64,000 nt of DNA from Roseomonas sp. Lineage in GTDB: Bacteria > Pseudomonadota > Alphaproteobacteria > Acetobacterales > Acetobacteraceae. Positions within the stretch are counted from its first letter, which is position 1; each line of letters starts with the position of its first letter. This document shows, in pieces, positions 51,908-54,909 of this stretch. Both the position numbers and the translations under genes were made by a program. The stretch spans positions 62,001 through 126,000 of the forward strand of contig JADCGA010000021.1 of assembly GCA_020249265.1 (NCBI GenBank). Reading direction: 5' to 3'. Below the pieces are notes generated by a model. That model saw only the letters and a list, made by a program, of their open reading frames with translations. It made no database searches and was not told the DNA's origin.

Positions 51908-53563
51908 CTACTTCACAATCGCGACGCGCAGCGCATTCGTCGTCCCCGGCGTGCCGAAGGGCACGCCGGCGGTCACCACCACCTCATCCCCGCTTTTGGC
52001 GAAGCCTTCATGCTGGGCGGCGCGCGTCGCGCGCGCCACCATTTCGGTCATGGAGTGGATTTCATTGACCTCCAGCGGATGCACGCCCCAGATCAGCGCC
52101 ATGCGGCGCGCGACACCCGCGCTGGTGGTCAGCCCCAGGATCGGGCAATGGGGCCTTTCGCGTGCCACTCGCAACGTGGTGGACCCGGTGGAACTGAAGG
52201 TCGCAATCACCTCGGCTTCAATAGTCTCGGCCACCTGGCGCGCAGCGGTGGCGATGGCGCCGGCGCTGGAATGTTCGGGCGGCGGGCGCGCGGCATCGGT
52301 CAGGCGGCGCCAATCGGGGTCCTGTTCTACGCGCGCCACAATGCGGTCCATCATATTCACCGCTTCATAGGGGTATTGCCCGGCGGCTGTTTCGGCTGAC
52401 AGCATCACCGCATCCGCGCCATCGAATACCGCGGTGCCGACATCAGACACCTCGGCGCGGGTTGGGCTTGGCGCGGTGATCATGCTCTCCAGCATTTGTG
52501 TCGCCACCACAACCGGTTTGCCGAGCGCGCGGGCGCTGCGCACGATGCGCTTTTGCGCGAGTGGCACTTCTTCTGGTGGGAGCTCCACGCCCAAATCACC
52601 ACGCGCGACCATGACGCAATCGGTCAGCGCCATGATGGCGTCCAGGTTTTCAAGCGCCTGGGGTTTTTCCAGCTTCACCATGATCCAGGCGCGCCCGGCG
52701 GCGATTTCCTTGGCCTCCGCCACATCTTCCGGGCGCTGCACAAAAGAAAGGCCGATATATTCAACGCCCTGATCCAGCACGAAGGCCAGGTCCGCGCGGT
52801 CCTTTTCCGTCAGCGCCGGGATGGGCAGCGCCACATCGGGCACATTCACGCCCTTGCGGTCTGACAGCGGGCCGCCGACCACTACCTGGGTTTCCAGATG
52901 GTCCGGGCGCTTATGCGTCACGCGCAAACGCAGCTTGCCATCATCCAGTAGCAGGGAAGTGCCGATTTCGGCGGCGCTGATGATTTCCGGATGGGGCAGG
53001 TTCACGCGGCTGACATCGCCGGGGGTGGGGTTCAAATCCAGCCGAAAGCTCTGGCCGGTTTGCAATTGCACCCGCCCGGCCTGAAACCGCCCAACGCGGA
53101 GCTTCGGCCCTTGCACATCGGCGAGAATCCCGATGGGGCGGCCCACCTTGGCTTCCACGGCGCGGATGGCGGCGATGCGCGCGGCGTGATCCTCATGGCT
53201 GCCATGGGAAAAATTGAGCCGGAAGATATCGGCGCCGGCGCGGTGGAGCTTTTCGATCATTTCCGCGCTGCTGCTGGCGGGGCCGAGCGTTGCGATGATT
53301 TTGGTGCGGCGCCGGCGGCGCAGAACGGGGCGGGCCACCATGCGGGGTGCTCCTATCATGGGTTCGGAATTTGATGGGGTGGGGGCCAGATCGGGCCGCA
53401 GGCTTTCCGGCGGTAAGTTCAGCGCCTTGGAAAGCTCCGAGACGCGATCTTCCGGGATGCGCTTCCATTGGGAAACGGCGGCAGTGGAAATGCCCAAGGC
53501 GGCGGCGATCTGCTTGACGGTGCCGCGCCGGGCGAGAAGGGCTTCGAGGTTTGGGTCACGCAT
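51908..53563 (-). CDS. pyk: Pyruvate kinase with an N-terminal Cro/YdaS-like DNA-binding domain
   Basis: The open frame gives 551 residues. Residues 1-59 form a helix-turn-helix unit (QIAAALGISTAAVSQWKRIP, then the LRPDL ending typical of P22-Cro/YdaS-like domains). Residues 60-74 are a Pro/Ser linker. From about residue 75 a full pyruvate kinase follows: GADIFRLNFSHG, ADVQGPKLRVG, MVKLEKPQALENLD, VMVARGDLGVELP, ATQMLESMI and GADAVMLSAETA. It converts PEP and ADP to pyruvate and ATP. An internal ATG at 53341 (Met75) has TAGGAG 8 bases upstream and would give a normal 477-residue enzyme, while the first ATG at 53563 has no ribosome site and TAAGAT 6 bases upstream (possibly leaderless). A fusion, a dual-start gene, or a very long annotated start are the options. 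Confidence 0.85.
   Translation of the reverse strand: MRDPNLEALLARRGTVKQIAAALGISTAAVSQWKRIPEDRVSELSKALNLPPESLRPDLAPTPSNSEPMIGAPRMVARPVLRRRRRTKIIATLGPASSSAEMIEKLHRAGADIFRLNFSHGSHEDHAARIAAIRAVEAKVGRPIGILADVQGPKLRVGRFQAGRVQLQTGQSFRLDLNPTPGDVSRVNLPHPEIISAAEIGTSLLLDDGKLRLRVTHKRPDHLETQVVVGGPLSDRKGVNVPDVALPIPALTEKDRADLAFVLDQGVEYIGLSFVQRPEDVAEAKEIAAGRAWIMVKLEKPQALENLDAIMALTDCVMVARGDLGVELPPEEVPLAQKRIVRSARALGKPVVVATQMLESMITAPSPTRAEVSDVGTAVFDGADAVMLSAETAAGQYPYEAVNMMDRIVARVEQDPDWRRLTDAARPPPEHSSAGAIATAARQVAETIEAEVIATFSSTGSTTLRVARERPHCPILGLTTSAGVARRMALIWGVHPLEVNEIHSMTEMVARATRAAQHEGFAKSGDEVVVTAGVPFGTPGTTNALRVAIVK
53341..53352 (-). promoter_or_regulatory. Internal ribosome-binding site and ATG within pyk
   Basis: On the minus strand AGGAG, then 8 bases, then ATG at 53341 (codon 75 of the long frame), exactly where the pyruvate kinase core begins (MVARPVLRRRRRTKI). 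This is a better start signal than that of the long form. Confidence 0.6.
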
Positions 53564-53569
53564 GGCCGT

Positions 53570-53632
53570 ATCTTAGCAAAATTAAGTTAAAATACTACCC
53601 AGAACCCGTTTAACTTAACTTTTAAAAGTTAA
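53570..53632 (-). promoter_or_regulatory. Cluster of TTAACTT/AAGTTAA sites upstream of the HTH-pyruvate kinase gene
   Basis: Heptamer copies lie at 53584-53590, 53610-53616, 53615-53621 and 53626-53632. The last two form the perfect 18-bp palindrome TTAACTTTTAAAAGTTAA (53615-53632), which also contains the glycerate-kinase stop codon. TAAGAT at 53575-53570 is a plausible -10 box, placing one site within the promoter spacer. The pattern fits operators for a Cro-type domain, here perhaps the one encoded by pyk itself. Confidence 0.55.
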
Positions 53633-54909
53633 GCTATCAGCAAGGCCCGAAAATCATTCACATTGGTCAGCGTCGGCCCCGTCACCACCAGATCACCCAG
53701 CGTCTGGAACAGCCGGTAGCTGTCATGCCCGGCCAGTAGCGCGCGCGGGTCAAGCCCGGCCGCACGGGCGCGAGCCAGAGTATCGGGGGTGGCGATGGCG
53801 CCGGCATTATCCTCCGACCCGTCAATGCCATCCGTATCGCCCATCAGCGCCCAGATGCCGGGGGTGCCAGCCAAAGCCAGCGCGCAGCCGAGCAAGCATT
53901 CCCCATTCCGCCCGCCTCGGCCTGGCTTGGGGCTGCGGATGGTGACCGTGGTCTCACCGCCGGAAAGCAGGATGGCGGGGCCGGGCAAAGGGTGACCATG
54001 GGTTGCGGCGGAACGCGCAATGCCGGCGAGGGCGGTGCCCAATTCCCGCGCCTCCCCTTCCAGCGCATCGCCCAGGATCAGCGGCGTCAGGCCCAGCCCA
54101 CGCGCGGCAGAGGCGGCGGCTTGCAAAGCCATGGCGGGGGTCGCGATGAAGCGGTAATTCGGCGTCCCCAAGCGCGGATCGCCGGGCTTCGGGCTTTCCT
54201 CCGCCCCTGCGGCCAAATGCGCCTGCACGGCTTCCGGCAGCTTCATCCCGTAATGCGCCACCAAGGCGCGGGCATCGGCGAAGGTGCTTGGGTCCGGCAC
54301 GGTGGGGCCAGAGGCAATCACACTCGGGTCATCCCCCGGCACATCGGAAATCGCGAGTGTGACGACGCGCGCCGGATGGGCGGCGGCGGCCAGCCTTCCG
54401 CCGGAAAAGGCGGAAAGATGCCGTCGGATGCAGTTCATTTCATGGATGGTGGCGCCCGAGGCCAGCAGCGCCTTATTCACGGCAATCAGTTCCTCCAGCG
54501 TCAGGCCGGGGGCGGGCAGCGTCGTCAGCGAAGACCCCCCGCCCGAGACCAGAAACAGCACCAGATCATCCGCCCCCGCACCGCGCGCCACTTCCAGCAA
54601 TGCCGTTGCCGCCTGGGCGCCTGCGGCATCCGGCACGGGGTGGGAGGCTTCAAGCACGCGCACCCGCTGCGTGGGGTAGCCATGGGCATAGCGGGTCACC
54701 ACCAGGCCCTCGACTGGCGCATCGGGCCAGGCATTCTCCACGGCTGCCGCCATGACAGCGGCGGATTTCCCGGTGCCCAGCACCATTACCCGACCGCGCG
54801 GGCGTTCCGGCAAATGCCGCGCCAGCACCTGGCGCGGATCGGCGCTGGCAATGGCAGCGTTGAACACCTGGCGAAGGGCGGCGCGGGCGGTTGCATCGGT
54901 AAAGGCCAT
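53629..54909 (-). CDS. Glycerate 2-kinase (GckA/TtuD, DUF4147-MOFRL family)
   Basis: A 426-residue two-domain kinase: the N-terminal DUF4147 part (VLGTGKSAAVMAAAVE, FLVSGGGSSL, NCIRRHLSAFSGGRLA, ISDVPGDDPSVIASGP) and the C-terminal MOFRL domain (LLSGGETTVTI, GRGGRNGECLLG, GDTDGIDGSEDNAGA). It phosphorylates D-glycerate to 2-phosphoglycerate. Older entries name it hydroxypyruvate reductase. It lies 65 bases upstream of pyk on the same strand, echoing the ttuD-ttuE (kinase-pyruvate kinase) pair of tartrate degraders. Confidence 0.92.
   Translation of the reverse strand: MAFTDATARAALRQVFNAAIASADPRQVLARHLPERPRGRVMVLGTGKSAAVMAAAVENAWPDAPVEGLVVTRYAHGYPTQRVRVLEASHPVPDAAGAQAATALLEVARGAGADDLVLFLVSGGGSSLTTLPAPGLTLEELIAVNKALLASGATIHEMNCIRRHLSAFSGGRLAAAAHPARVVTLAISDVPGDDPSVIASGPTVPDPSTFADARALVAHYGMKLPEAVQAHLAAGAEESPKPGDPRLGTPNYRFIATPAMALQAAASAARGLGLTPLILGDALEGEARELGTALAGIARSAATHGHPLPGPAILLSGGETTVTIRSPKPGRGGRNGECLLGCALALAGTPGIWALMGDTDGIDGSEDNAGAIATPDTLARARAAGLDPRALLAGHDSYRLFQTLGDLVVTGPTLTNVNDFRALLIA

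Follow-up and report, generated by a model that had tools for sequence, protein, structure and literature searches.

The window, the whole 64,000-nucleotide stretch of Roseomonas DNA that was analysed, carries on its minus strand (53563-51908) one open frame of 551 codons with an ATG start and zero internal stops. Judged by the frame, Pfam, NCBIfam and its relatives, this gene (51908..53563) encodes a fusion of a Cro/YdaS-type HTH domain, a linker and a pyruvate kinase. A single frame with these three parts, the kinase complete, had been described in the first-pass annotation of this DNA and was found uninterrupted on the minus strand, as was the LRPDL motif said to end the HTH, at residues 55-59. 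A gene of the glycerate 2-kinase type (53629..54909, minus strand), recognized by its Pfam domains DUF4147 and MOFRL, lies 5' of the fusion gene on the same strand. The pyk gene likewise adjoins a glycerate kinase gene in the PA1498-PA1499 pair of the gcl cluster, as described in PMC12694930. In the genome to which the window belongs, which is 99.87% complete, the fusion was the sole pyruvate kinase match.

The kinase part comprises a barrel domain (residues 85-402; 52358..53311, minus strand), assigned by Pfam PF00224 and alignment to 7oo1, and a C-terminal alpha/beta domain (residues 436-547; 51923..52258, minus strand), assigned by PF02887. Both were far over the Pfam cut-offs and the kinase domains are complete. 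The NCBIfam match of the kinase was PRK06247 pyruvate kinase, with 699 bits, and the closest solved structure by sequence, 7oo1, matched residues 85-549 with an E value of 3.3e-160 (5.7e-188 for the profile match). An AlphaFold2 model of the fusion protein, built from 28 sequences and with a mean pLDDT of 79.6, gave this region the strands and helices of the kinase domain. The residues R115, N117, S119, D149, K297, E299, D323 and T355, which we take to be the catalytic residues of pyruvate kinase, were all invariant in 28 fused sequences. The 7oo1 protein is P. aeruginosa PykF, which is a tetramer in solution and is allosterically controlled by metabolites (PMC8637920); by analogy we infer that the fusion protein is a tetramer with pyruvate kinase activity. 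The likeness to the PykF type (7oo1; PRK06247) covers residues 85-549; 7oo1, unlike the fusion, begins at the barrel and has neither an HTH nor a linker.

The HTH domain (residues 1-59; 53387..53563, minus strand) was delimited from Pfam, sequence relatives in the PDB and the structure model. A Pfam search of the N-terminus for the two families named at first pass, with residues 1-75 alone as the query, bore out the P22_Cro assignment (PF14549, residues 11-44, 36.7 bits against a cut-off of 30.2), but YdaS (PF15943, residues 13-59) narrowly missed its cut-off, with 29.7 bits against 30. The sequence relatives in the PDB were the Cro protein 3bd1 (E 1.6e-7), P22 Cro 1rzs (E 5.2e-6) and XPH1 5w8y. 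The modelled domain had five helices (residues 4-10, 15-23, 27-31, 38-48 and 52-55; pLDDT 77-87 by block) in the helical HTH fold of the P22_Cro/YdaS family. The Pro-rich linker that follows (residues 60-84; 53312..53386, minus strand) was defined from the model and from dN/dS, and its residues 62-75, with a pLDDT below 50, are predicted to be disordered.

Within the genus, 33 of 35 genomes encoded the HTH and the kinase in one frame, at full length in 31 and truncated by contig ends in 2; of the other two, one had a match that began at a contig edge and one had no match. When the HTH by itself was used to scan named genome records, 87 loci were confirmed, and the best 80 of the 87 were all fused in frame to pyruvate kinase (79 of the 80 were read by script and the other, L107, separately; L157 and L163, which the script did not recognize either, were also read separately). 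These 80 came mostly from roseomonads (Roseomonas, Falsiroseomonas, Neoroseomonas, Belnapia, Roseococcus, Rubritepida, Humitalea and others), the remainder being Acetobacteraceae, Rhodospirillales or Alphaproteobacteria named less exactly, together with two called Asaia. The HTH extension, whose conservation in frame among Acetobacteraceae pyruvate kinases had been the first point raised for checking, is thus present in both sets. Two artifacts had also been considered, an HTH gene of its own, closed by a stop ahead of pyk, and a frameshift in the assembly. Both were ruled out by the continuous frame in the window and in the fused relatives that were read. Because HTH and kinase share one frame across the genus and at the loci of the HTH scan, the fusion is not a product of chance or of assembly error; it is real. 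In one genome (G001, locus L054) the 3' third of pyk was seen to be present twice, the second copy lying some 3.2 kb away from the intact gene.

In the family (249 genomes), kinase matches that started at residue 1 numbered at least 35; the other matches listed started at residue 24 or later, mostly at 59-84, and those that were read had no HTH. A pyruvate kinase of G050 that matched from residue 21 was considered as a candidate fusion and rejected, as it had neither the HTH nor the exact operator described below. A tree of the kinase part, made from 54 chosen loci and the window (40 fused, 15 non-fused), required six changes of the HTH trait, which was patchy and absent from several roseomonad lineages, and a single clade of fused kinases was rejected (p-AU 2.9e-12). 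This pattern may reflect an early gain with several losses, or transfer.

Two palindromes, considered as candidate operators, precede the fusion gene. The proximal one, CTTAGCAAAATTAAG (CTTAATTTTGCTAAG on the gene strand), matches CTTA-N7-TAAG exactly and occupies -23 to -9 relative to the ATG (53572..53586). The distal one is the own-clade form of the site, a perfect 20-bp palindrome, CTTAACTTTTAAAAGTTAAG, at -70 to -51 (53614..53633), and shares bases with the stop codon of the gene upstream. No other copy of its core, TTAACTT-N4-AAGTTAA, was present in the own genome within two mismatches, and this distal site can be fitted to the N7 pattern only at the cost of one mismatch in each register. 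The sister clade has an exact CTTA-N7-TAAG at the distal place as well, with about 41 bp between it and the proximal one. Neither a sigma-70-type promoter at 53400-53900, a result that leaves repression by promoter overlap conjectural, nor an intrinsic terminator at the candidate operators was found.

The palindromes were compared in 80 distinct fused promoters of 130 nt each, drawn from 115 fused loci. They contained 116 exact CTTA-N7-TAAG sites, against 0.1 expected from 200 base shuffles. At least one exact site was present in 78 of the 80 promoters, two were present in 38, and two promoters had none; when one mismatch was allowed, all 80 had a site at the proximal or the distal place, with no proximal site in 3 and no distal N7 site in 12. 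A scan of half-site spacings from N0 to N15 gave the 116 sites at N7, 35 at N12 (including the own-clade 20-bp palindrome) and 0-6 at every other spacing. The members of an exact pair were 41 bp apart in 27 of 38 promoters (range 37-42), or about four helical turns. Since the seven inner bases vary, the palindromes are not a matter of plain sequence conservation. Non-fused relatives lacked them: no CTTA-N7-TAAG was found within 360 nt in 15, with one mismatch allowed, nor in 3 more in which exact sites were sought, a total of 0 of 18. An exact pair occurred in 10 of the 249 family genomes, 9 of the 10 directly before a fused pyk, while the pattern read backwards, used as a control, formed a pair in 1 of 249. 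The tenth pair (L139 of G652, a genome not listed as fused) was more closely spaced and lay beside the frame of an XRE-type repressor. On the tree, the association of HTH and operator amounts to three well-supported independent contrasts (p 0.25), too few for significance, and for this reason the weight of the case is placed on the footprinting and not on the tree.

The same HTH was also sought in phages and in other bacteria of the class. The best match among 50,697 phage records was an unannotated cro-like frame of Komagataeibacter phage phiKM1 (LC644974.1; L284:1501-1743), which matched the HTH at 41% over 59 aa (E 6e-10), shares the N-terminus MRD, and adjoins an annotated XRE-type repressor gene on the opposite strand. 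The 3.2-kb piece of this phage held three exact CTAA-N7-TTAG sites against 0.01 expected, a half-site chosen after matches with two mismatches had been seen; one lies at -26 to -12 from the cro-like start and two are elsewhere in the piece. The phage's host, Komagataeibacter, belongs to the same bacterial family as the roseomonads. In 385 evenly sampled genomes of the class, a profile of the HTH matched in 11: the window's own, six with fusions to a TorD-type chaperone, one with a fusion to an NAD(P)HX enzyme, two with short frames and one with a LysR-like frame. A fusion of the HTH to a CcdA-type antitoxin tail was noted at L052 (G028) and L053 (G001), Pfam having been run on the L052 protein. 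The TorD-type fusions (Nitrate_red_del; L041-L044, L046 and L047, of G395, G156, G059, G069, G191 and G223) were identified by Pfam in three cases and by reading in the other three, and all six had an exact ATAG-N7-CTAT in the 125 nt that precede the HTH match, with a half-site that was chosen after looking. L048:1-1683 (G050) joins the HTH to a bifunctional NAD(P)HX epimerase/dehydratase, and GTAAGCATAACTTAC stands ahead of it at -27 to -13. That phage, chaperone and kinase genes have the 4-N7-4 format in common argues that the HTH itself reads the palindromes. The most likely history is that a phage Cro domain was captured by pyk to give an autoregulating enzyme, which in one clade would also control pckA.

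Exact sites were searched for through the whole of 22 fused genomes. The own genome had 5 exact CTTA-N7-TAAG sites and 32 of the backwards-read pattern, and the motif is therefore rare rather than enriched there. The four sites away from pyk fell in permease, peptidase and TonB receptor genes and in the gap where recA and a tctC-like gene face each other with their 3' ends (names from reading the frames). Only the pyk sites are in promoter position. A regulon beyond pyk in the own genome was thus unsupported, the other four sites being coding or between convergent genes. Twelve sister-clade genomes of the same genus had 46 exact sites: 24 at pyk, 11 at pckA, 3 in the gap between genes for a DAO-family oxidoreductase and an ABC solute-binding protein (SBP), 1 at maeB and 7 elsewhere; the domains of the targets were identified with Pfam on one example each. 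Nine fused genomes of other genera had 25, of which 15 were at pyk, 1 was at maeB and 9 were elsewhere. Of 26 fused genomes (G434 excluded from the count), two had an exact operator at maeB; these, G028 and G510, belong to different genera, and maeB was rejected as a general target. The operators between the divergent DAO-family and solute-binding protein genes, seen in G004, G010 and G032 (L173, L179 and L206), differ from one another in their inner bases.

The region upstream of pckA was compared in 40 genomes (29 of 30 searched, G478 having no match, and 11 further loci; the sister-clade genomes G015, G016 and G030 were left out). An exact operator was present in 12 of 13 sister-clade genomes, the exception being G003, and in none of 5 own-clade genomes (the window's own and 4 others), 13 non-fused genomes or 9 other fused genomes, 6 of the last having a one-mismatch match at other places. 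The site lies inside the last codons of the preceding gene, of the PNPOx/DUF2470 family. There the 12 sister-clade genomes have TTA...GTA/TTA-AGC codons that read F-L-x-x-V/L-S-D; among 17 other genomes with readable codons, none has that TTA and 9 have Pro instead (F-P-x-P). It looks as if the end of the preceding gene's protein had been adapted to accommodate the DNA site of pckA. A second conserved block, resembling GTAACC-NNN-CGGTTCG, was seen just upstream of the pckA operator (L171, L203, L207 and other pckA loci) and in some fused genomes that have no pckA operator; it is perhaps the site of another regulator.

Taken as a whole, the sequence data are best explained if the fusion gene encodes an enzyme that is also a regulator, a reading in which we have considerable confidence. 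It had been suggested at first pass that a glycolytic enzyme might respond to PEP, FBP or AMP and relay the signal to DNA binding, and the DNA-binding part of that suggestion is made probable, at the own promoter and at pckA in the sister clade, by the comparison of promoters. The footprint strongly favors binding of the HTH to the CTTA-N7-TAAG palindromes before pyk, and the fusion protein very likely binds its own operators; by such binding, pyruvate kinase would control its own transcription. The likely sign is repression because the proximal site reaches to 9 bp from the ATG. The HTHs of the kinase tetramer would bind both palindromes on one face of the DNA, and on balance the fusion protein probably represses its own gene. 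A tetramer would offer four HTHs, which may be distributed two per operator. In the sister clade, the conserved upstream site suggests that the fusion protein also acts on pckA, the gene for PEP carboxykinase, which we regard as likely; one and the same protein would then catalyze the conversion of PEP to pyruvate and regulate the enzyme that makes PEP from oxaloacetate.

Changes in the kinase driven by ligands (PEP, sugar phosphates or AMP) might alter the affinity for DNA through the flexible linker. Such effector control is a guess by analogy with P. aeruginosa PykF as described in PMC8637920, and metabolite gating of DNA binding by the fusion protein is given a little short of an even chance. 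A wider picture is put forward tentatively. Capture of a phage Cro may have made pyruvate kinase a flux-sensing transcription factor, in which the tetramer would bridge two operators four helical turns apart, the allosteric state would set the affinity for DNA, and in some lineages the enzyme would directly control PEP carboxykinase and occasionally malic enzyme. The kinase might then be one case of a wider alphaproteobacterial habit, in which attachment of the same Cro domain, with a 4-N7-4 operator, to a chaperone of the TorD type, to an enzyme of NAD(P)HX repair and to a CcdA antitoxin would give self-regulating genes.

Pyruvate kinase holds a central place in the control of carbon flux, and if the reading is true the PEP-pyruvate-oxaloacetate node would be coupled to transcription directly, at the molecular level. 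Many roseomonad genera have kept the fusion; candidate operators precede the fusion gene itself and, in one clade, pckA as well. The fused and non-fused genomes, with and without the pckA site, form a natural series in which the change of an enzyme into a regulator can be studied, and the reading predicts exact sites.

Enzymes with a DNA-binding domain of their own are a known kind. PutA, BirA and NadR are active enzymes of this type that repress genes of their own pathway, and the fusion, by its sequence, resembles them in having an intact enzyme and a dedicated DNA-binding domain in one chain. To our knowledge none of the three is a glycolytic enzyme, and it is in this choice of enzyme that the present protein differs from them. 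The fusion resembles the P22 Cro and YdaS-type phage repressors (PF14549, PF15943; 3bd1, 1rzs) in the sequence of its HTH, in the palindromes before its own gene and in having a phage relative with the same N-terminus; the matched Cro/YdaS proteins, in contrast, are free proteins of 61-80 aa, and the fusion tethers the domain to a housekeeping enzyme. BzdR, in the account given in PMC3602430, is an XRE-type HTH fused to a domain like shikimate kinase; it regulates a promoter, and its enzyme part senses benzoyl-CoA and has undetectable shikimate kinase activity. An XRE-type HTH, a linker and the domain of a metabolic kinase are common to BzdR and the fusion, but the C-terminal part of the fusion, unlike that of BzdR (PMC3602430), is a complete and conserved pyruvate kinase, with no second one found in the genome. 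Among the titles and beginnings of abstracts that were covered in the open-access literature, none described such a pyruvate kinase fusion.

A simpler account, to which we assign a substantial but less than even chance, is that the protein is a plain autorepressor. More protein would mean less transcription, with the kinase serving as tetramer scaffold and gauge of abundance and with no gating by metabolites. The operator evidence needs no ligand to explain it, Cro proteins act independently of effectors, and the disordered and variable linker means that coupling between the parts may be weak. This account leaves unexplained the pckA operator of the sister clade and the tethering to pyruvate kinase, and the related P. 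aeruginosa PykF is under allosteric metabolite control (PMC8637920).

It is unlikely that the gene yields two proteins, with the working kinase made from an internal start at M69 or M75 and the long form a rare regulator. The alternative form of 477 residues envisaged at first pass might indeed be made from this gene, as M69 and M75 are both present in the linker and a start at M75 gives 477 aa, and 59 of 74 homologues also have an ATG in the linker. The linker has no ATG in the other 15 of the 74, however, and no ATG, GTG or TTG in 3 of the 74.

That the palindromes are bound by some other, unlinked regulator, while the fused HTH does something else or nothing, appears very improbable. The link between HTH and palindrome is drawn from comparison of sequences, and one observation would fit such a regulator: in G652, which is not among the genomes listed as fused, the operator-like pair adjoins the frame of a separate XRE-type repressor. 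Against this, the exact site tracks the HTH on the kinase tree, being present in 39 of 40 fused rows and 0 of 15 non-fused rows, and other carriers of the HTH have their own 4-N7-4 palindromes upstream (the TorD fusions, 6 of 6, and the phage cro-like gene).

To return to the proposed enzyme-regulator, its three parts were compared by dN/dS in 73 of the 80 loci and the window (L064, L068, L081, L100, L109, L115 and L133 were dropped as partial or with an offset start). The kinase was under the strongest purifying selection, with 0.03 in the own clade and 0.11 in the sister clade, and selection on the linker was relaxed (0.41 and 0.43, respectively). A decaying relic of phage capture with no present function is scarcely credible for the HTH, even though the domain is common to phage Cro and is missing from several roseomonad lineages, in view of its dN/dS of 0.12 in the own clade and 0.23 in the sister clade, which indicates purifying selection, the invariance of core residues such as 28-33 in 28 sequences, and operators kept at a fixed spacing.
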